Shown in pieces: positions 30,093 through 40,922 of a stretch of 64,000 bases of DNA; the stretch's first letter is position 1; every line of letters starts with the position of its first letter. The notes under the pieces were generated by a model. The model did no database searches and was not told where the DNA came from. It saw nothing but the letters and a program-made list of their open reading frames with translations. Source of the stretch: Bacteroidota bacterium. GTDB taxonomy: Bacteria > Bacteroidota > Bacteroidia > UKL13-3. Location of the stretch: the NCBI GenBank assembly GCA_040388375.1, contig JAZKBU010000004.1, positions 310,001 through 374,000 of the forward strand, read 5' to 3'. The position numbers and the translations under genes were made by a program.

Positions 30093-30121
30093 TTGTTTTT
30101 TAGGCTGAATAATTACTTTTG
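30093..30121 (+). promoter_or_regulatory. Putative promoter of the propeller kinase
   Basis: TTG, 18 bp, then TACTTTTG (exact TAnnTTTG), ending 18 bp before the ATG at 30140. It lacks the CTACAT inverted repeat found before the next two genes. Confidence 0.5.
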
Positions 30122-30139
30122 ATAGCAAGTCTATACACC

Positions 30140-33088
30140 ATGCGTTTTTCGTTTTTCGTTTTTTTTATTTTAACTATTACCCATTTATCGCTGCAGGCAA
30201 ACCCTGTTTTGTACGATGATGGGAAAGGTTTATCAAACAACCAGATAACCGAAATAATAAAAGACAAAACAGGCATTATGTGGATAGCCACAGAAAGCGG
30301 GCTTAATAAATACGATGGCTATACCTTTACCGAAATAAACGAACTAAAAGGATACAGGATTAATACCATATACTTTGATTCCGCTAAAAATGCCCTTTGG
30401 ATAGGCTGCAATAAAGGATTACATTATTACAACATCAGCACCGGTTTATTAGAGAAAAATATATACCAAACCAATGCTTCAGAAGTAATAAAAATAATAG
30501 CTTATAACCAAAGCAAGTACATTGTATTTATGAATGGAACCATTGTACGCATTGGCAGTAATTTATTGAGTAAAGAAGTGTTTTCACTCCTTGCATTGGG
30601 TTTGCAAAATGCCACCATTAAAAAATCAATTGCGCATGACCAAAAAGGCAATATTATTTTTACCAGTAATAAGTTCCCCTTTCTTATTAGCTTACAATTA
30701 GCTACAGGCAAGTGTGTTATTTTAAAAGAATACCCAAGCCAGAACATAAGCAGCTTAACAAGTGCCAAAGACTATTATGTGATATTGTATAATTCTGGGG
30801 GTTATAGAGTACTGCCAACCTCGGTTAAACCAACTGCTGCTACGCTGGCCATACAAAAAAGTCAGGAAGCAACACAGCATATTAAATACCATACCATTTA
30901 CATAAAAGATAACGAAGTGTATGCCACCCAAAAAGGCTATCATAATTTATACTATTTAGTCGATGGCCAATGGCAAACTATTTCAGCAGGAGCCAATTTT
31001 CAGCTAAGTTCAAAAACAATGAACACCATGTACCTTGACGATTTTATGGTATTATGGCTTGGCACCAATAAAGGATTAATAAAAGTACCCTACCAAACCA
31101 AATATCCATTTACCTCCATTTTTAGCAGCAATGTATCACCAATTAGTATCAGGCAAATAGTAGAAGCCAAAAACAACGATATGTTTATAGCTACCTATAA
31201 AGGCATCTACCAGTACAACACCCTAACCCATTATACAAAAAACATAGTCGATTCCATATTCCCGTTTTACACCAGAGCCATTTGCCTTGACACAGGTAAT
31301 TATTTGTACGCAGGCACAGAGTCGACAGATCAATACTTTTACCGATACAATATAAAAACAAAAAAGTACGAAGGCGATTTTTATAAATTAAGTCCGTTAG
31401 GCGCACAGATAAATTCAGTTTTTAGCATATACCGCGATAAGCATAATACCTATTGGCTGGCTACCGATAAAGGTTTGGCTTCCTACAATCCCAAAGACCG
31501 CCTTTTAAAGCTACATATTGCAGGGAAATACAGTATAGGCAGCATTAAGCTATTTTACATCAATGCATCAAAAAATAGCAATAAGTTTTGGGTATGCGGA
31601 TTAAATGCAGTCTATTTAATAGATATAGACAATGGCGTTAGCAAAGAGTATAAAGCAAATGTCAATAGCAAAACACTCATTCCTGCTGATGATTATATTT
31701 TTGTAGCAGAAGATAAAAACCAGATAGTTTGGCTAGGTACAAAAAAATCAGGCTTAATAAAACTAGACTATATACATAACCAATCATTAGTTATCAATAA
31801 ATCAAAAGGATTATCAAGTAACGAAGTATATGGTTTAATATCAGAAAACCAATCCATAGCATGGGTAAGCACAGCCAATGGCCTATGCCGCTACGACATT
31901 CAAAACAATACCTTTACCAATTACTTTATCGACAACGGACTTACCGACAATGAGTTTAATCAAAACGCCTTGTACAAGCATTCGTCAGGCCAGTTTTATT
32001 TTGGAGGTATCAATGGCATCAATATTATCAATCCCCGTTTATTTAAACCCCATAACCCGGCATTAGCCATATTTACCGCAAGTATCCACAAGTGGAACCA
32101 GTCAGACGAAGTTTTTAAAGAAGTAAAAGACAGCAGTGTTATTTTAATGAAGCCCGATGACCATTTACTCACCTTTACATTTGGTTTAAGTGATTACAAT
32201 GAAGTAGAAACCAATACCTTTTTTTACAGAATAAAAGGGTTGTATAACGAATGGATTAGTTTAGGTAATCAAAACCAGTTAAGGTTAGAAGGCCTATCCG
32301 CAGGAGAGTATATGGTTGAAATTATAGGGTTCAACAGAGCAGGAATGCAAGCAAGTTCAGCCTTATTATACAAAGTAAAACTAGCGCAGGTATATTATAA
32401 AACATGGTGGTTTTATGTGCTGTTAGCATGTACCGCAATACTTTTAATTTTTGCGTATTTCAGGTGGCACCTAAATAACATCAACCAAAAGCAACAGCTA
32501 CGCACACAAATTGCCAGTAACCTGCATGATGAAGTAGGAAGTTTACTGACCAGTATTATTATGTCAACCGATAGTGCCCGTTATAGTTCCTCCAATATAG
32601 ACGATAAGAATTTAAAGCTCGAAAAAATATCAGCATTAAGCAGAAATGCAACCAATACCATGAGCGATGTATTGTGGAGTATAGATGCCCGAAACGATTA
32701 TGCCGGAAACCTGACAGACCGCATGAGAGAGCATGCAGAAATGATGCTGTTTCCTTTAAACATTGACTTGGTGTTTGACTTTACAGAAACCCAACAGCAA
32801 AAAATAATAAAAGCCGATAAGCGCCAGCAGTTGTATTTAATTTTTAAAGAAGCCATTAATAATATAGCCAAACATAGTCAGGCTACATTTGTAAAAATTA
32901 TATACAAACAAAAAGGCAATCATTTTGAGCTGGTAATAGAAAATGATTATAAAGCAACACCTGCTGATTTAAATACCAGCAGTGGACAAGGCTTACGTAA
33001 TATTAAAATGCGGGCTCAAAAAATAAATGCCGAATGTATTATTCTAACCCAAAAAGAAATTTTTACCATAAAAATAACAGGCAAATAA
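30140..33088 (+). CDS. Propeller-sensor histidine kinase with HisKA_3 domain (NarX/DesK type)
   Basis: The 982-residue protein has a signal peptide (MRFSFFVFFILTITHLSLQ) and two-component propeller repeats through about residue 640 (IMWIATESGLNKYDGYTF, IWLGTKKSGLIKL). A Y_Y_Y domain and one transmembrane helix near 760-780 precede a HisKA_3 dimerisation domain with H796 in NLHDEVGSLLTS. A HATPase with the short EAINNIAKHSQA N-box ends the protein. HisKA_3 kinases pair with LuxR/NarL regulators, and one is encoded 66 bp downstream. The ligand is unknown; the next large secreted protein is the likely output. The ATG at 30140 follows a promoter match and gives a clean signal peptide. Confidence 0.9.
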   Translation: MRFSFFVFFILTITHLSLQANPVLYDDGKGLSNNQITEIIKDKTGIMWIATESGLNKYDGYTFTEINELKGYRINTIYFDSAKNALWIGCNKGLHYYNISTGLLEKNIYQTNASEVIKIIAYNQSKYIVFMNGTIVRIGSNLLSKEVFSLLALGLQNATIKKSIAHDQKGNIIFTSNKFPFLISLQLATGKCVILKEYPSQNISSLTSAKDYYVILYNSGGYRVLPTSVKPTAATLAIQKSQEATQHIKYHTIYIKDNEVYATQKGYHNLYYLVDGQWQTISAGANFQLSSKTMNTMYLDDFMVLWLGTNKGLIKVPYQTKYPFTSIFSSNVSPISIRQIVEAKNNDMFIATYKGIYQYNTLTHYTKNIVDSIFPFYTRAICLDTGNYLYAGTESTDQYFYRYNIKTKKYEGDFYKLSPLGAQINSVFSIYRDKHNTYWLATDKGLASYNPKDRLLKLHIAGKYSIGSIKLFYINASKNSNKFWVCGLNAVYLIDIDNGVSKEYKANVNSKTLIPADDYIFVAEDKNQIVWLGTKKSGLIKLDYIHNQSLVINKSKGLSSNEVYGLISENQSIAWVSTANGLCRYDIQNNTFTNYFIDNGLTDNEFNQNALYKHSSGQFYFGGINGINIINPRLFKPHNPALAIFTASIHKWNQSDEVFKEVKDSSVILMKPDDHLLTFTFGLSDYNEVETNTFFYRIKGLYNEWISLGNQNQLRLEGLSAGEYMVEIIGFNRAGMQASSALLYKVKLAQVYYKTWWFYVLLACTAILLIFAYFRWHLNNINQKQQLRTQIASNLHDEVGSLLTSIIMSTDSARYSSSNIDDKNLKLEKISALSRNATNTMSDVLWSIDARNDYAGNLTDRMREHAEMMLFPLNIDLVFDFTETQQQKIIKADKRQQLYLIFKEAINNIAKHSQATFVKIIYKQKGNHFELVIENDYKATPADLNTSSGQGLRNIKMRAQKINAECIILTQKEIFTIKITGK

Positions 33089-33089
33089 A

Positions 33090-33105
33090 CTACATCTTTA
33101 TGTAG
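33090..33105. promoter_or_regulatory. Candidate operator 1 (CTACAT-N4-ATGTAG)
   Basis: A perfect 6-bp inverted repeat with 4-bp spacer (CTACAT-CTTT-ATGTAG) begins just after the kinase stop. It ends one base before the TTG (33107-33109) of a promoter-like sequence for the regulator gene. The same repeat with the same offset precedes the giant T9SS gene. Confidence 0.6.
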
Positions 33106-33106
33106 C

Positions 33107-33137
33107 TTGTTTAAGATTATTTTAAGTAAAGATTTGT
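33107..33137 (+). promoter_or_regulatory. Putative promoter of the NarL-type regulator
   Basis: TTG, 20 bp, then AAGATTTG, which is one mismatch from TAnnTTTG. It lies 18 bp before the regulator ATG. A weak -7 box with an abutting upstream inverted repeat fits an activator-dependent promoter. Confidence 0.4.
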
Positions 33138-33154
33138 AGCGCAGTAATAAACCC

Positions 33155-33787
33155 ATGAATAAATTGAAACTTGCCATAGTTGAAGACATAGAAGATATCA
33201 GAAATGGCCTGAAGGAATACTTTAGCCAGCAAGCAGATATCCAGGATGTAGAAGTGTTTGGCAATATGGAAGACATATTAGAGCGTTTAAAAAATAATTA
33301 CGAGCCCAATGTAATTTTAAGCGATATAGGCTTGCCCGGCATAGACGGTATAGATGGCATTAAATTAATATCAAAGCTCGTACCCAATACCGATGTAATT
33401 ATGCTAACCGTTTTTATGGATAGCGATAAAATATTTAATGCATTGTGTGCAGGAGCCACAGGTTATTTATTAAAGGGAACACCAATGCCCGAAATAAAAA
33501 AGGCCATATTAGAAATTTACAGAGGAGGAAGTTATATGTCTCCATCCATTGCCCGAAAAGTAGTAGAGCATTTTAAAGTGCCTACCAAAAAAGCAAACTA
33601 TGTATTAACCGAACGTGAACGCGAAGTAATTAATGGTTTACTGGATGGTTTAAGTTATAAATTAATAGCCGATAGGCTTTTTATTTCCATAGATACCGTA
33701 CGTTTTCGCATTAAAAGCATTTACAAAAAACTACACGTTAACAGCAAAGCTGAAATCTTATCCAAAGCCTTAAAAGGCGAAATTTGA
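33155..33787 (+). CDS. NarL/LuxR-family response regulator
   Basis: The 210-residue protein has a receiver domain (LAIVEDIEDIRNGL, phosphoacceptor D57 in ILSDIGLPG, GYLLKG) and a C-terminal LuxR-type helix-turn-helix (about 145-205: LTEREREVINGLLDGLSYKLIA, then SIDTVRFRIKSIYKKLHV). It is the evident partner of the HisKA_3 kinase just upstream. NarL-type regulators dimerise on short inverted repeats. Such a repeat (CTACAT-N4-ATGTAG) precedes both this gene and the following T9SS gene, suggesting autoregulation and control of the secreted protein. Confidence 0.93.
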   Translation: MNKLKLAIVEDIEDIRNGLKEYFSQQADIQDVEVFGNMEDILERLKNNYEPNVILSDIGLPGIDGIDGIKLISKLVPNTDVIMLTVFMDSDKIFNALCAGATGYLLKGTPMPEIKKAILEIYRGGSYMSPSIARKVVEHFKVPTKKANYVLTEREREVINGLLDGLSYKLIADRLFISIDTVRFRIKSIYKKLHVNSKAEILSKALKGEI

Positions 33788-33808
33788 TTGGCTATTATGA
33801 CACTATTT

Positions 33809-33824
33809 CTACATGCATATGTAG
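33809..33824. promoter_or_regulatory. Candidate operator 2 (CTACAT-N4-ATGTAG)
   Basis: CTACAT-GCAT-ATGTAG is a second perfect copy of the repeat at 33090-33105. It ends one base before the TTG (33826-33828) of the promoter match for the 2314-residue T9SS protein, so its centre would be near -45, a normal activator position. Confidence 0.6.
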
Positions 33825-33854
33825 TTTGCTGGTTTTAATTTTGGGTTAATTTTG
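33825..33854 (+). promoter_or_regulatory. Putative promoter of the giant T9SS gene
   Basis: TTTG, 18 bp, then TAATTTTG (exact TAnnTTTG) at 33847-33854. A second TAATTTTG lies 11 bp upstream (33836-33843). Start of transcription would be near 33861, about 55 nt before the ATG. Confidence 0.5.
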
Positions 33855-33915: not shown

Positions 33916-36900
33916 ATGAAAATTTTTTACTACAAAAATGTTTTTTCCATGTTTTCAAAAAGAACATTGCGTGTTGCATGTATTCTTTTACTCCATGTCT
34001 TATTTTTTAAAGTATCCTATGCACAGGTATATGTGCCTGCAACAGGTTACAATTCCGATCAGGTAGCAGAAGGTATTGGTGCACCAGCTTCATCCACAAC
34101 TACAGCCACCGACCTTGGAGTCGATAACGGAAACTATGTTTTTATAGATGGAACATATCAGTACAATGCAACATGTGCTTTAGCCACTGCCAATATTCTA
34201 CCGGCCAATAAATTAATAACAAGTACAGCAGCGCCAGGTCTCGTTTATCAGTTACAGTCATATACAGGTAACAATGCATTGCGAGTTCCGGCTACAGGTA
34301 CAGGCGTAGGGTCAGCTACCCTTACTTTTGCCACGCCCATGTCAGTAGCTAATTTATACCTATTATGTGTTGCCGGTGGAGGAGCCATTACAAGTGGAGT
34401 AGATGTAACTGTAACCTTTACCGATGCAACAACCCAGGTTTTCACCGCACAAACTGCACAAGACTGGTGTAACACCGCATCGTCAGGTAACTATACAAAA
34501 ATTACAACCACTAATTACAATAGAATACAAACCAACACTACTACTGGATGCGGAAACTACAGTGCTTGCCAATATTTTGCCGAAATGGCTTTAGCTATTA
34601 ATACTACCAACTATACCAAATTAGTATCTTCAGTAACCATTGCTAAAACAACAACAACCAATGTAATGAACATATATAGTATTGGAGCAGTACCCCCTTG
34701 TACTGCCCCTACTGCGCAACCAACTGCGCTTAACTCTACTTCAATCGGTAGCGGAAGTATTACTGCAACTTTTACTGCACCGGCTATACCGCCAACAAAT
34801 TATTTAGTAGTAAGATACCCACAAGGAACAACAACCATTACAGCTCCCGTAAACGGAACCACCTATACCCTTGGTCAAACAATGGGTTTAGGCAGGGTAG
34901 CGGCTATACCAGCTACAAACGCATTTTCAGCCGTTGGTTTAACGCCAAGTACCGGATACGATTTTTATATTTATTCATTCAATGGAGGCTCAAGTTGTTA
35001 TTACGCAAATTATTTAACAACAAGTCCATTAGCCGGAACCTACACCACAGCGGCCTGTGGCTCATTAACCGGAACAATATCAGTAGGAGCATCAGGAACA
35101 TACAGCACCTTAACAAGTGCTATTAACGCAGTAAGCACTTCCGGCTTAAGTGGTAATGTATTTATTGAATTACAACCATCCTATAACAGTTCTTTAGAAA
35201 CCTTTCCAATAGTATTCCCCGAAAACCCTTGCGTATCTTCAACCAAAACCATTACCATCAGACCCGATATTACAGTTTCGTCACCTTTAACCATAACCTC
35301 TTCGGCAGCACAAACCTTTTTGTACGATGCAGCCAAATACATTACCATAGATGGAAGACCGGGTGGTGTTGGAACAAGCAGCATGCTTTCCATTATAAAT
35401 ACCAATACAGCTGGTGTTACTGCGCAGTTTATGAACGATGCACAATACAATAAAATTATGTATTGCGATGTACAGGGACAAAACACCAGTTCAACCTCAA
35501 CCGCACCGTGTGGAGTAATTTATTTCGGTACCACCAGCACCATTCCACTTTTAGGTAACGATAGTAACCAGATTTTAAATTGCGATATACATGCAACAAC
35601 AACAGGATTTCCTGCCATAGGTATTGCATCATACGGAGCAACTACAACTACAGCAAGCTGGAACGATTATAATATTGTTAGCGATTGTAATATTTACGAT
35701 TTCTTTAGTGCAACATTGGCAAGCACGGCTGTTAAATTAGATGGTGGAAGTAATGCTTTTACCATAAGCAATAATAAAATATACCAAACAGCTACGCGTA
35801 CTTTTACTACAGGAAACCAGCACCGTGCCTTTTGGCTTACACCTACAGTTACCGGAGCATGCGGGTTTAAGATTCTTAATAATTATATAGGTGGCAATAA
35901 CAGTGCAGGTACAGGTACCTGGACCTTAAACGGAGCCGTTGTAACCAATTTTTGGGGTATGGATATCAACCATACAGGAACCATCCCTTCATCAGTACAA
36001 GGAAACACCATCACCAATATATCATTAACATCAACCACAACTACCGCCAATGATTTATTCCGTGGTATCAGTACAGGTAATAACGGAAATGTTGATATAG
36101 GCACCGTAACAGGTAATACAATAGGTTCTTCAACCGTTGCGGGAGCAATTACTTTAGTTACATCAGGTACAGGTTCTTTTTCATATGGTATAAAAAATGG
36201 AAGCACATCAGCATCGTCAGATACCATTAATATATACAACAACACAGTTGCAGGAATTACCGTTTCATCATCAGTGGCTACCAGTGGAGCTAACTTATAT
36301 GGAATTGCAGCTACCAGTGGTTCCTATACCAATATTTTTAACAATACCGTGGGTAGTATAACTATGCCAAATAGTTTATATTCATCAAACAATGCGACTT
36401 CAACACAATCAGTGTACGGTATAAGCGTAGTTGCCGGAATCAGGACCAATATAAACAACAACACAGTAGTTAACATAACCAATAATTATACAGGAACAAG
36501 TACCGGGTATTTACGTGGTATAAACTTAACATCATCTACCACATCATTTGTAACCAATAATAAAGTATCCAATTTAGCCAGTAACAGTGCCTATACAAGT
36601 TCAGGTACCACATCAGCTGTAATTGGTATTTTAGTAAGTACAGCCAATCCAAGTACCGTAACCGATAATAGAGTTGACTCAATAGTATTGAGCAATGCAA
36701 CTTCAACGGCAGCATCATACATTGAAGGTTTAGTTATTAGTTTAAATGGAAGTACACCAACAAACGTAATAGCAAGAAACTTTATACATCATTTATACGC
36801 TTCAGGAGTTAATCAAAATACCACTTTAGTTGGAATAGATATTATAGGCGGTTCAAACATTATAGCCAATAATATGGTTCAATTAGGAACCTTGCCAAGC

Positions 36901-39900
36901 GGCTATAATTTTACCAACACAGCAGTAATCAGAGGTATATATTTAAACACCACCACGGCTACCAATCTATACCACAACTCCATTTATATTGGTGGGGATA
37001 CAGTAGGCTCTACAGTAAAACACTCAGTTGGTTTTTATAGAAATGCCGCTTCAGGTACACACGAGTTTAAAAACAATATAGTATACAATAACCGCTCAAA
37101 CGTAGGGGTCGGTGGTAAACATTATGTATTATTTTTAAATACAGTTACAGGTTTATCATTAGCCAATAACCTATACTATGGTGCAGGAGTAGGTTATGTT
37201 TTTGCAACAGCCAATAACGGTACATCAGATATAGCTACATTTATTTCAGGCTGGTCAGGTGCCGATGTAAACAGCTCTTTTGCAAATCCACAATTTATGA
37301 ATCCAACCGGAGGTTCAGCAGGTTCAGCATCAGTAGTTGATTTACATATTAACCCAAGCGTAACTACCCCTGTTGAATCAGCAGGAGTATTGCTGGCAAG
37401 CATTACCGATGATTATGACGGACAAGCCCGTTCTGCATTTTCACCAACAGATATTGGAGCAGATGCAGGAAACTTCTTATCATTGGGAATGACCATTGAT
37501 TCAAGTAATGTTGACCAGGTAACCACTATTATCCCAACCGGAACCCAAAACCAGGCTATCATAGCATTGAGAATTCATGCTAACGGAGCAGTTAACCCTA
37601 TCAACGTATTGTCATTAAAATTCAATACTGCAGGAACAACCAATACAGCCAACATAAGCAATGCACGAGTTTACTATACAGGTTCATCAAATGTATTGAG
37701 TACCGCTACCCAATACGGTTCAACAGTAGTTGCACCAAATGGAACATTTTACATTTCAGGAACCAAAGCATTAAGCCCCGGTGTTAACTACTTTTGGTTA
37801 ACATACGATATTGCTGTTTCAGCAACACCAGGTAATTTCGTTGATGCCAGAGTAGATAGTATAGGTTTAAGTTTAGGTATTAATCCTTCCCTTATCAATG
37901 GCGATCCATTTGGCGCACGCACCATAGCAGCATCATTAAATGGAAGTTATAACGTAGGAGCCGGCCAAACATATACAACCATTACCGCAGCTCTGGCAGA
38001 TTTGAGCGTACTAGGTCTTTCAGGCCCCGTTACATTAAACTTGGTTGATGCCAGCTATGCAACTACTACTGGAGAAACATTCCCAATAAACATCAATACC
38101 TATACAGGTATGAGCAATACCAACAAATTAACCATTCAACCCGGGCCGGGTAATGTAGCAACTATTATTTCTGCTAATGCCGGGTCAACTATCAATTTAG
38201 ATGCTAGTAAATATTTTGTTATAAATGGTATGCAAGGCGGTACAGGAACATCAAGAAGTTTAATTGTACAAAATGATAACGTAGGAGGTTCCGCTTTAAG
38301 TTTTATAAACGATGCTACAGCTAATATAATTAAGCACGCTGTATTCAGAGGAGCATCAACCAATTCAACCATTGGTGTGGTAAATTTTGGTACGGGTGTA
38401 GTAACCGGAAACGATAGTAATTTAATTGACAACTGCGATATTGCTGATGCAGCCTCACTTCCGGCAACTTTAGTTCAGGGAAGAGGTTCGTTTGATGCAT
38501 TAACCAAATTCAATAATGATAATGTAATCAGCAATTGTAATTTGTATAATTTCTCAGCTACCTCAGGTGAGACAAATGCTTTTAAAATTTCAAAAGGTAA
38601 TACCAACTGGACCATTACCAATAATAGTGTATACCAAACAGTACCAAGAGCGTTTAATGTTATACATTATCTAATGAATTGGAATAGAATAGTTGATGGT
38701 GGTACCAATGTAGATGATGCTATGGCGCAAGCCTCATTAAACAATATGATTGTTACTAATAACTATATAGGAGGAAGCGCTCCATTATGTGGTGGAACAC
38801 CGTGGACACAAACAGCCTCAACAGGCCAGTTTAATAGTTATTTCAATGTTGGAAACCAAACAGCCACTACTGTAAAAAACAATACATTTGCTAACTTTAA
38901 TATCACATCAACATCAGCCTTTACAGGTACACCGGGAGTTTGGAATGCCTTCCAATATATTGGTGGTAAAGTAAATATTGACAGTAATTTAATAGGGTCA
39001 TTAACAGACAGTAATTCAATTATAATTAATGCAGCCAGTGGAGCCATTGTTTTCCCAATAGCACTTACTGCTAACGTTGCAGGGTCTTACACCGTAAGAG
39101 GTAATAAAATTGCCGGTATAAGAGTAAGCGGCTCAGGAACAGCAGCCGTAAATATTTATAGTATATATATTGCTTCAGCAACCAATACCGTTAGTTACCA
39201 AATAGACGGTAATATTATAGGAGGAACAGCAGGTATAGCTAATTTAACATCTTCATCTACTACAGCGCAGGTAAATTATGGTATCAATAATATCAGTACC
39301 GCTATTTTAACTATTAATAATAATACCATTAGTAATTTAAATAATTACCACAATACAATAGGTAATTCACAAACAATAGGTATACGCACCACTGCAGGTA
39401 ATAATGCCATTACCAATAATGTTATTAATAGTTTAGCAAACAATTCAGCACAGCTTAGTACAGGTATAAATGCTCCTGTTATCGGTATCTCAATGACATC
39501 TGCAACGGCAACCAATACCATTAGCCGCAATAATATAGCCACTATAAACCACAATAATTTAACCGAAGCAACACAAACAATAGGTATTTATTATGCAGGT
39601 GCTACAGGCGATATAATTGATCGTAATACCATACATAGTTTTAATACATTATCATCATCAGTTACTGCAAGTCAAATAGGTTTACAAATAGCAGGCGGTA
39701 CAGCCCGTATTTATAACAATGTTGTTAGATTAGGTGTAGATAGCAATGGATATTCACTGACATCAACACCAATACTGACAGGTATTTTAATTTCAGGTGG
39801 AAATGCCAGGGTGATTTATAATACAGTTTACCTAAGTGGTGTTGTGGCAAGTGGTGCAGGTAATACTTTTGCAGTTAGCAGAACAAGTACAGGCAGCGAT

Positions 39901-40860
39901 TCATTATTCAATAATTTATTTATTAATAACCGAATTGGTGGTACGGGAAATCATTATGCCATTAACGCAGGTTCAAATACAGGTTTAACCTCAAACTATA
40001 ATAACTTTAATACATACTCAACCTATGTAGGCATGTTTGCTTCAGTTAATCAGGCAGCCCTTTTCGATTGGCAAACGGCATCAAGCACAGATGCTAACAG
40101 CGCAAGCAAACCGGTATATTTTGTAAATAGTGGTGCCAGTGCTTCCTTTATTGACTTTCATTTAACAGGTACCTCATTAGGCGATTTAGGTTTAATAGCT
40201 AAACCTGTTGGAGGTATTACAACCGATTTTGATAATCAAGCCCGCGATTTAACAAAACCATACATGGGTGCTGACGAAAATTTAAGCAATCCACTACCGG
40301 TTAAGTTAATTACATTTAGCGCTAACTTACAAAACAAAGATGTTTTATTAACCTGGGCTACTGCTATGGAGCAAAATAACAAAGGGTTTGAATTACAGCG
40401 TTCTTTCGATGCAAAAACATTTGAAACAATTGGTTTTGTTAAGGGAAAAGGAAACAGCAATAAGAACGAAAAGTATAGTTTTACAGATGTGAATGTAAAA
40501 GCAAGTAATAACAACGTTATTTATTACAGGTTAAAACAAATTGATTACGATGCGCAGTTTACTTACAGCCCAGTAGTTAAAATAAGTACAGAAGAGCAAC
40601 AAGCGCTATTTAATGTATCAGGTTATCCTAATCCAATAAAAGACGAGTACTATGTAAGCATAAATGCAGTTAATAATGCAAATGTTACCTTGCAGTTATT
40701 CGATTTGCAAGGTAAAGTAGTATTGTCTCAATCATTGGTTTTAACAAAAGGAACCAACGTAGTAAAAGTAGATAATATAGATAAAATGCAATTAGGCGTT
40801 TATTTATTACACCTAACTATGAATGGCGAAACCCAAATAATAAAAGTAGTAAAGAATTAA
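33916..40860 (+). CDS. Giant secreted repeat protein with T9SS type A sorting domain
   Basis: The 2314-residue protein starts with a signal peptide ending KVSYAQ; a second Met 11 codons in is an alternative start. Two homologous modules lie near residues 380-640 and 1340-1590. Each begins SVGASGTYSTLTSAI or NVGAGQTYTTITAAL and runs into Asn/Thr/Ser-rich repeats of the INNNTVVNI kind, which suggest right-handed parallel beta helices. A beta-sandwich region separates them. Near 2125 comes the LPVKLITFSA domain typical of T9SS cargo, and from about 2236 the sorting domain (YPNPIKDEYYVSI, LFDLQGKVV, GVYLLHL) that sends it across the outer membrane. An adhesin or glycan-binding role is plausible, not shown. 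It lies directly after the NarL-type system. Confidence 0.9.
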   Translation: MKIFYYKNVFSMFSKRTLRVACILLLHVLFFKVSYAQVYVPATGYNSDQVAEGIGAPASSTTTATDLGVDNGNYVFIDGTYQYNATCALATANILPANKLITSTAAPGLVYQLQSYTGNNALRVPATGTGVGSATLTFATPMSVANLYLLCVAGGGAITSGVDVTVTFTDATTQVFTAQTAQDWCNTASSGNYTKITTTNYNRIQTNTTTGCGNYSACQYFAEMALAINTTNYTKLVSSVTIAKTTTTNVMNIYSIGAVPPCTAPTAQPTALNSTSIGSGSITATFTAPAIPPTNYLVVRYPQGTTTITAPVNGTTYTLGQTMGLGRVAAIPATNAFSAVGLTPSTGYDFYIYSFNGGSSCYYANYLTTSPLAGTYTTAACGSLTGTISVGASGTYSTLTSAINAVSTSGLSGNVFIELQPSYNSSLETFPIVFPENPCVSSTKTITIRPDITVSSPLTITSSAAQTFLYDAAKYITIDGRPGGVGTSSMLSIINTNTAGVTAQFMNDAQYNKIMYCDVQGQNTSSTSTAPCGVIYFGTTSTIPLLGNDSNQILNCDIHATTTGFPAIGIASYGATTTTASWNDYNIVSDCNIYDFFSATLASTAVKLDGGSNAFTISNNKIYQTATRTFTTGNQHRAFWLTPTVTGACGFKILNNYIGGNNSAGTGTWTLNGAVVTNFWGMDINHTGTIPSSVQGNTITNISLTSTTTTANDLFRGISTGNNGNVDIGTVTGNTIGSSTVAGAITLVTSGTGSFSYGIKNGSTSASSDTINIYNNTVAGITVSSSVATSGANLYGIAATSGSYTNIFNNTVGSITMPNSLYSSNNATSTQSVYGISVVAGIRTNINNNTVVNITNNYTGTSTGYLRGINLTSSTTSFVTNNKVSNLASNSAYTSSGTTSAVIGILVSTANPSTVTDNRVDSIVLSNATSTAASYIEGLVISLNGSTPTNVIARNFIHHLYASGVNQNTTLVGIDIIGGSNIIANNMVQLGTLPSGYNFTNTAVIRGIYLNTTTATNLYHNSIYIGGDTVGSTVKHSVGFYRNAASGTHEFKNNIVYNNRSNVGVGGKHYVLFLNTVTGLSLANNLYYGAGVGYVFATANNGTSDIATFISGWSGADVNSSFANPQFMNPTGGSAGSASVVDLHINPSVTTPVESAGVLLASITDDYDGQARSAFSPTDIGADAGNFLSLGMTIDSSNVDQVTTIIPTGTQNQAIIALRIHANGAVNPINVLSLKFNTAGTTNTANISNARVYYTGSSNVLSTATQYGSTVVAPNGTFYISGTKALSPGVNYFWLTYDIAVSATPGNFVDARVDSIGLSLGINPSLINGDPFGARTIAASLNGSYNVGAGQTYTTITAALADLSVLGLSGPVTLNLVDASYATTTGETFPININTYTGMSNTNKLTIQPGPGNVATIISANAGSTINLDASKYFVINGMQGGTGTSRSLIVQNDNVGGSALSFINDATANIIKHAVFRGASTNSTIGVVNFGTGVVTGNDSNLIDNCDIADAASLPATLVQGRGSFDALTKFNNDNVISNCNLYNFSATSGETNAFKISKGNTNWTITNNSVYQTVPRAFNVIHYLMNWNRIVDGGTNVDDAMAQASLNNMIVTNNYIGGSAPLCGGTPWTQTASTGQFNSYFNVGNQTATTVKNNTFANFNITSTSAFTGTPGVWNAFQYIGGKVNIDSNLIGSLTDSNSIIINAASGAIVFPIALTANVAGSYTVRGNKIAGIRVSGSGTAAVNIYSIYIASATNTVSYQIDGNIIGGTAGIANLTSSSTTAQVNYGINNISTAILTINNNTISNLNNYHNTIGNSQTIGIRTTAGNNAITNNVINSLANNSAQLSTGINAPVIGISMTSATATNTISRNNIATINHNNLTEATQTIGIYYAGATGDIIDRNTIHSFNTLSSSVTASQIGLQIAGGTARIYNNVVRLGVDSNGYSLTSTPILTGILISGGNARVIYNTVYLSGVVASGAGNTFAVSRTSTGSDSLFNNLFINNRIGGTGNHYAINAGSNTGLTSNYNNFNTYSTYVGMFASVNQAALFDWQTASSTDANSASKPVYFVNSGASASFIDFHLTGTSLGDLGLIAKPVGGITTDFDNQARDLTKPYMGADENLSNPLPVKLITFSANLQNKDVLLTWATAMEQNNKGFELQRSFDAKTFETIGFVKGKGNSNKNEKYSFTDVNVKASNNNVIYYRLKQIDYDAQFTYSPVVKISTEEQQALFNVSGYPNPIKDEYYVSINAVNNANVTLQLFDLQGKVVLSQSLVLTKGTNVVKVDNIDKMQLGVYLLHLTMNGETQIIKVVKN

Positions 40861-40886: not shown

Positions 40887-40922
40887 AATCCCTGATAGCG
40901 ATATGTTATCAGGGATTTTTTG
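40887..40922 (+). terminator. Hairpin terminator after the giant T9SS gene
   Basis: AATCCCTGATA and TATCAGGGATT form a perfect 11-bp stem with a 9-nt loop and a following T-run, 27 bp after the stop. Confidence 0.85.

Follow-up and report, generated by a model that had tools for sequence, protein, structure and literature searches.

Paired palindromes beside a NarL-type regulator gene and a giant T9SS-type protein gene suggest an autoregulated two-component cassette in a Bacteroidota genome

Introduction

Bacteroidota genomes hold many two-component systems that pair a propeller-bearing sensor with a NarL-type regulator and have no known operators, and we found none described in the open-access literature. 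In the window, by which we mean the whole 64,000-nucleotide stretch analysed here, the word CTACAT-N4-ATGTAG stands both before a regulator gene of this type and before the gene for a very large secreted protein. Are these two palindromes operators through which the regulator governs its own gene and its neighbour, and does the same arrangement recur elsewhere in the phylum?

Genes of the cassette

The cassette lies on the forward strand and begins with a sensor histidine kinase gene, an open reading frame of 989 codons at 30119..33088 that is probably translated from the ATG at 30140. Its product combines a periplasmic Reg_prop beta-propeller (Pfam, 2.3e-20), a Y_Y_Y-like domain (7.9e-4, under its cut-off), a transmembrane segment and HisKA_3 (2.9e-5). 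The 210-residue response regulator that follows (33155..33787) is of NarL/FixJ type, with Response_reg (1.2e-20) and GerE (2.7e-14) both above the Pfam cut-offs; VraR and NarL are its closest relatives with solved structures, and its recognition helix is DTVRFRIKSIY. The regulator carries the phosphorylatable Asp and conserved switch residues of its class: receiver residues D11, D57 and K107 are invariant and T85 nearly so in a 10-sequence alignment. The third gene (33916..40860) encodes 2314 residues; both this length and that of the regulator are as the earlier sequence-only reading had given them. The giant protein has the type A sorting domain of T9SS cargo (Por_Secre_tail, PF18962, 2.6e-8; TIGR04183, 2e-9), a BNR_assoc_N domain (Pfam, 5e-11) and an N-terminus that looks hydrophobic, by eye only, and it is presumably exported by the type IX system. 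A terminator-like hairpin of 14 pairs followed by TTTT (40887..40917, forward strand) suggests that the giant gene is transcribed alone.

Proposed operators and promoters

Operator 1, CTACATCTTTATGTAG, occupies 33090..33105 between the kinase stop and the regulator gene, and operator 2, CTACATGCATATGTAG, occupies 33809..33824 upstream of the giant gene; both are exact copies of the word, as first reported. At 16 bp, their size and symmetry agree with the NarL 7-2-7 operator class, of which an engineered site, TACCCCTAAAGGGGTA, is likewise 16 bp long (PMC4549865).

Each palindrome is followed on the forward strand by promoter-like elements, and here too the sequence-only reading, which had recognized a TTG and a -7 box at both places, was right. 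After operator 1 comes C-TTG, with the TTG (33107..33109) as the presumed -33 element, and then the box AAGATTTG (33129..33136), whose TTTG lies 27 nt past the operator end and which is weak or imperfect, lacking the T at -12. Operator 2 is directly followed by TTTG (33825..33828), which we take as the -33 element for the giant gene, and then by TAATTTTG (33847..33854), whose TTTG lies at 26 nt, 27 nt being the commoner spacing. Measured against the Bacteroidetes primary-sigma promoter (-33 TTTG, -7 TAnnTTTG), the sequence after operator 2 fits, and that after operator 1 fits in part (TTG, AAGATTTG). On the Flavobacterium johnsoniae promoter numbering (T-12 A-11 ... T-8 T-7 T-6 G-5; PMC6847099), transcripts are predicted to start at ~33141 for the regulator and ~33859 for the giant gene, and a 27-nt spacing places the palindrome at -51 to -36, with its axis at -43.5 and its edge abutting the -33 element. 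We also scanned for E. coli-type sigma-70 promoters, which we judged irrelevant, shuffled sequences giving more matches.

Frequency of the word and a paralogous cassette

The exact word occurs twice in the whole 3.97 Mb genome, where base composition predicts ~0.46 copies (0.007 per 64 kb). The absence of a third copy, noticed earlier for the window, therefore extends to the genome, and the many random copies that would have spoken against the proposal did not appear. The word itself is nevertheless without enrichment: allowing one mismatch gave 9 genomic places against 10 for a backwards control pattern, and a motif-first scan of 395 genomes, blind to regulators, with a composite pattern gave 20 matches against 22 for its control. 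Since these counts are no higher than those of the controls, frequency alone proves nothing, and we discarded the bare word count as evidence; the evidence lies in position and pairing. The genome-wide regulon of the window regulator was scanned by pattern only. A third candidate in the same genome, C3:251276 (TTACATTTTCATGTAA, TTTG at 27), sits in the final part of an open reading frame on the opposite strand and was discarded. Several composite-pattern matches were likewise set aside as chance matches in coding sequence, such as that in G416 at the FtsZ C-terminus, where the codons for FLHDNVD mimic the palindrome by chance; the family scan met this mimic in G024 as well (L217:6818 and L212:5684, in genomes G024 and G416).

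Two of the seven extra one-mismatch places flank the regulator of a second sensor/regulator/giant-T9SS cassette on contig 3, in the same layout as in the window. This regulator is 58% identical to that of the window; CTACATTGTCATGTGG precedes its gene, and CTACATGCTCATGTGG precedes the gene for a 2050-residue T9SS protein with 34% identity to the window giant over 1419 aligned positions. As the proximal variant ATGTGG is common to both sites, both operators of that cassette have changed together. The word is nearly private to the window regulator, and a variant differing by one base serves its diverged paralogue. In this genome, a third system of propeller kinase and NarL-type regulator (L052) has the palindrome TACGTACAAATACGTA at -68 upstream of its regulator, directly followed by TTTG and with TTTA at 26 nt; it differs from the window word and is perhaps the private operator of that system.

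Related cassettes in other genomes

The sequence-only reading had proposed conservation beside related regulators as a check, and the word is indeed found with the in-genome paralogue and in G027, G034 (two systems), G097, G246 and G272. G027 and G034 belong to one family (regulators 55% identical) and G097 to another; in G027, both G034 systems and G097, pairs of the word flank the regulator or precede successive downstream genes. In G246 and G272, which came from the motif-first scan, the word brackets an operon that encodes T9SS-tail protein(s), a propeller kinase and a regulator; notably, the genomes of that scan with two separate sites carry them around such systems. Among the first six cassettes (12 sites), a -7 TTTG (nine sites) or a one-base variant of it (three) lies at 26-27 nt. 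The CTACAT-bearing regulators come from several lineages and are mutually just ~36-46% identical; in every one, the second variable position of the recognition helix is F or Y.

No such site was found near most of 80 database regulators, one of Taibaiella lutea (L071, 60% identical) among them, nor near one of G076 (L056, 55% identical). Beside distant regulators, searches for CTACAT itself were mostly unsuccessful; a search by symmetry and spacing without the word succeeded.

The gene behind the downstream operator usually encodes a hydrophobic leader, and a T9SS sorting signal is present in eight of these targets (the window, L051, L114, L233, L258, L262, L268 and L096), two of the eight signals falling under the Pfam cut-off. 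In the second G034 system and in G246, one operator precedes a gene for a free-standing propeller protein, which the G272 gene at the corresponding place resembles in appearance. Behind the downstream operator in three genomes, the free-standing propeller protein has 250-297 residues (L066:8402-9292, L208:12533-13282 and L209:11166-11936; Reg_prop confirmed in the first two, the third similar by eye); a role as sensor accessory is possible.

Some further loci are recorded as separate observations. Giant secreted DUF285 proteins (L096:8939-16615 and L126:8680-10602) lie behind regulators with KYH helices and hold a clear ubiquitin-like domain (PF00240, 9e-18; residues 1164-1229 in L096). In G347, a 256-residue LuxR-like protein that our NarL-type regulator signature missed lies between CTACACTTTTGTGTAG and CTACACATAAGTGTAG (L211:5537 and 6574), a similar design. 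Three Balneolaceae loci (L078, L080 and L081) carry TCACAT-N4-ATGTGA just after the regulator and before a Ser/Arg-rich probable lipoprotein, with a -7 box that deviates from TTTG.

Spacing rule across NarL-type regulators

The word-free rule, run on 161 NarL-type regulators, asked for 6-N4-6 arms with at least 5 of 6 pairs and a TTTG at a given offset. Offset 27 yielded 40 cases compared with ~6 at other offsets, and an axis 35 nt before the TTTG recurred for gaps of 0, 2, 4, 6 and 8 and was absent for odd gaps. Once the window family and the cassettes found motif-first were removed, the remaining 153 regulators had 34 palindromes with TTTG at +27 versus 5.95 expected per offset (nominal Poisson P 2e-15), and 48 further, previously unexamined regulators had 12 versus 1.9 expected (P 9e-7); these P values assume independent sites and are guides, because the set includes closely related loci and a shifted palindrome may be counted twice. 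Neither the reverse strand of the 153-regulator loci (7 versus 7.6 expected) nor the other gene promoters within these loci (9 versus 5.7) showed a significant excess. In 17 of 38 independent sites, a TTG directly follows the palindrome. By a stricter score, only ~34 of the 161 cassettes have a site, and a recognisable site is present in just part of the regulators.

Private words and the recognition helix

Five cassettes have confident sites both upstream and downstream of the regulator, and in each the two words agree; the half-site distance across the regulator averages 0.20, against 3.06 for shuffled partners (permutation P 0.008), and L334, from the set of 48, repeats this agreement. Where two regulators are no more than 55% identical, the mean half-site distance is 2.54 for pairs with the same helix residue 2 and 3.50 otherwise (lowest of 300 label permutations, 2.93), helix class and phylogeny being partly confounded even with pairs above 55% identity excluded. 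In this code, F or Y at residue 2 goes with CTACAT, RAH with CTACCA, S mostly with TCACAT or TCATAT, T with TCCCAT or TAC[AT]AC and V with TAACCC. The KAH regulators of the 48-regulator set have TNACCC, as does L262, the sole KAH case of the first set with a TTTG box.

We think it likely that these regularities form a recurring Bacteroidota grammar, in which many NarL-type regulators own a 16-bp palindrome centred 35 nt upstream of the -7 TTTG and a half-site partly predictable from helix residue 2. Such regulators would mostly be paired with propeller-type kinases, with the site lying before the regulator, before an adjacent and usually secreted target, or before both.

Proposed mechanism and alternatives

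For the window, we consider it highly probable that this is an autoregulated two-component cassette, whose NarL-type regulator switches on both its own gene and that of the adjacent secreted protein. The propeller-bearing kinase would phosphorylate the regulator encoded next to it, and a regulator dimer would bind the 16-bp palindrome, whose 6-N4-6 arms match NarL 7-2-7 sites in size. Centred near -43.5 with its edge on the -33 element, the bound dimer could then contact polymerase and help it initiate at a Bacteroidetes-type promoter; binding before the regulator gene would give positive feedback, and binding before the giant gene would activate a surface protein presumed to be exported by T9SS.

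The same binding could in principle serve repression, with negative autoregulation and a repressed giant gene: NarL also represses, for instance frdA from a 7-2-7 site near the start site (PMC4549865), and operators touching the -33 element could hinder polymerase. The sites nevertheless stop before that element and leave the -7 box uncovered, and their axis falls between the positions of the NarL-activated promoters napF (-40 to -49) and yeaR (-38 to -47) of E. coli (PMC4549865). The constant axis-to-box distance over ~30 diverged sites is also more in keeping with an activator that contacts polymerase than with a repressor, and we regard repression as unlikely.

A reader other than the window regulator is very improbable. 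The word lies at two genomic places only, both beside the window regulator, and it travels with relatives ~40-58% identical that have the aromatic helix residue. It is barely credible that the palindromes act instead at the RNA level, as weak hairpins or terminators where genes end. Operator 1 does begin one base past the kinase stop codon, and 6-bp arms with a 4-nt loop can fold; yet no T tract follows the palindromes, the excess is confined to TTTG at +27 and to the coding strand, the symmetry axis stays constant over even gaps, and the words agree across the regulator and follow its helix.

Significance and comparison with known systems

The activating cassette would put single giant surface proteins directly under the control of a sensor. 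If the grammar is true, many orphan regulators could have their operators and targets read from sequence: a fixed operator-to-promoter spacing and a helix-dependent word make targets predictable and testable, and would provide a naturally occurring collection of orthogonal regulator/operator pairs for Bacteroidetes promoters.

The closest parallel is E. coli NarL/NarX, which shares the receiver plus GerE architecture, a 16-bp palindromic site with its axis near -43 and a HisKA_3-type kinase. The window cassette differs in its half-site word, its Bacteroidetes -33/-7 promoters and its propeller sensor, NarX being a nitrate sensor, and its targets are adjacent and private whereas those of NarL form a respiratory regulon. 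The Reg_prop/Y_Y_Y type of sensor region is like that of the hybrid two-component systems (HTCS) of Bacteroides; these have kinase and regulator in one polypeptide (PMC11253607), whereas the window encodes separate proteins (30119-33088 and 33155-33787) with a GerE output. Porphyromonas gingivalis FimS/FimR is likewise a two-component system that activates a surface protein gene, mfa1, by direct promoter binding; its targets are fimbriae, and the portion of that source available to us describes neither a paired private palindrome nor a fixed spacing (PMC1974823). PorXY-SigP, finally, is also a two-component system tied to type IX secretion, but it acts on the secretion machinery itself, by way of an ECF sigma factor (PMC4800418), whereas the apparent target in the window is one cargo gene.
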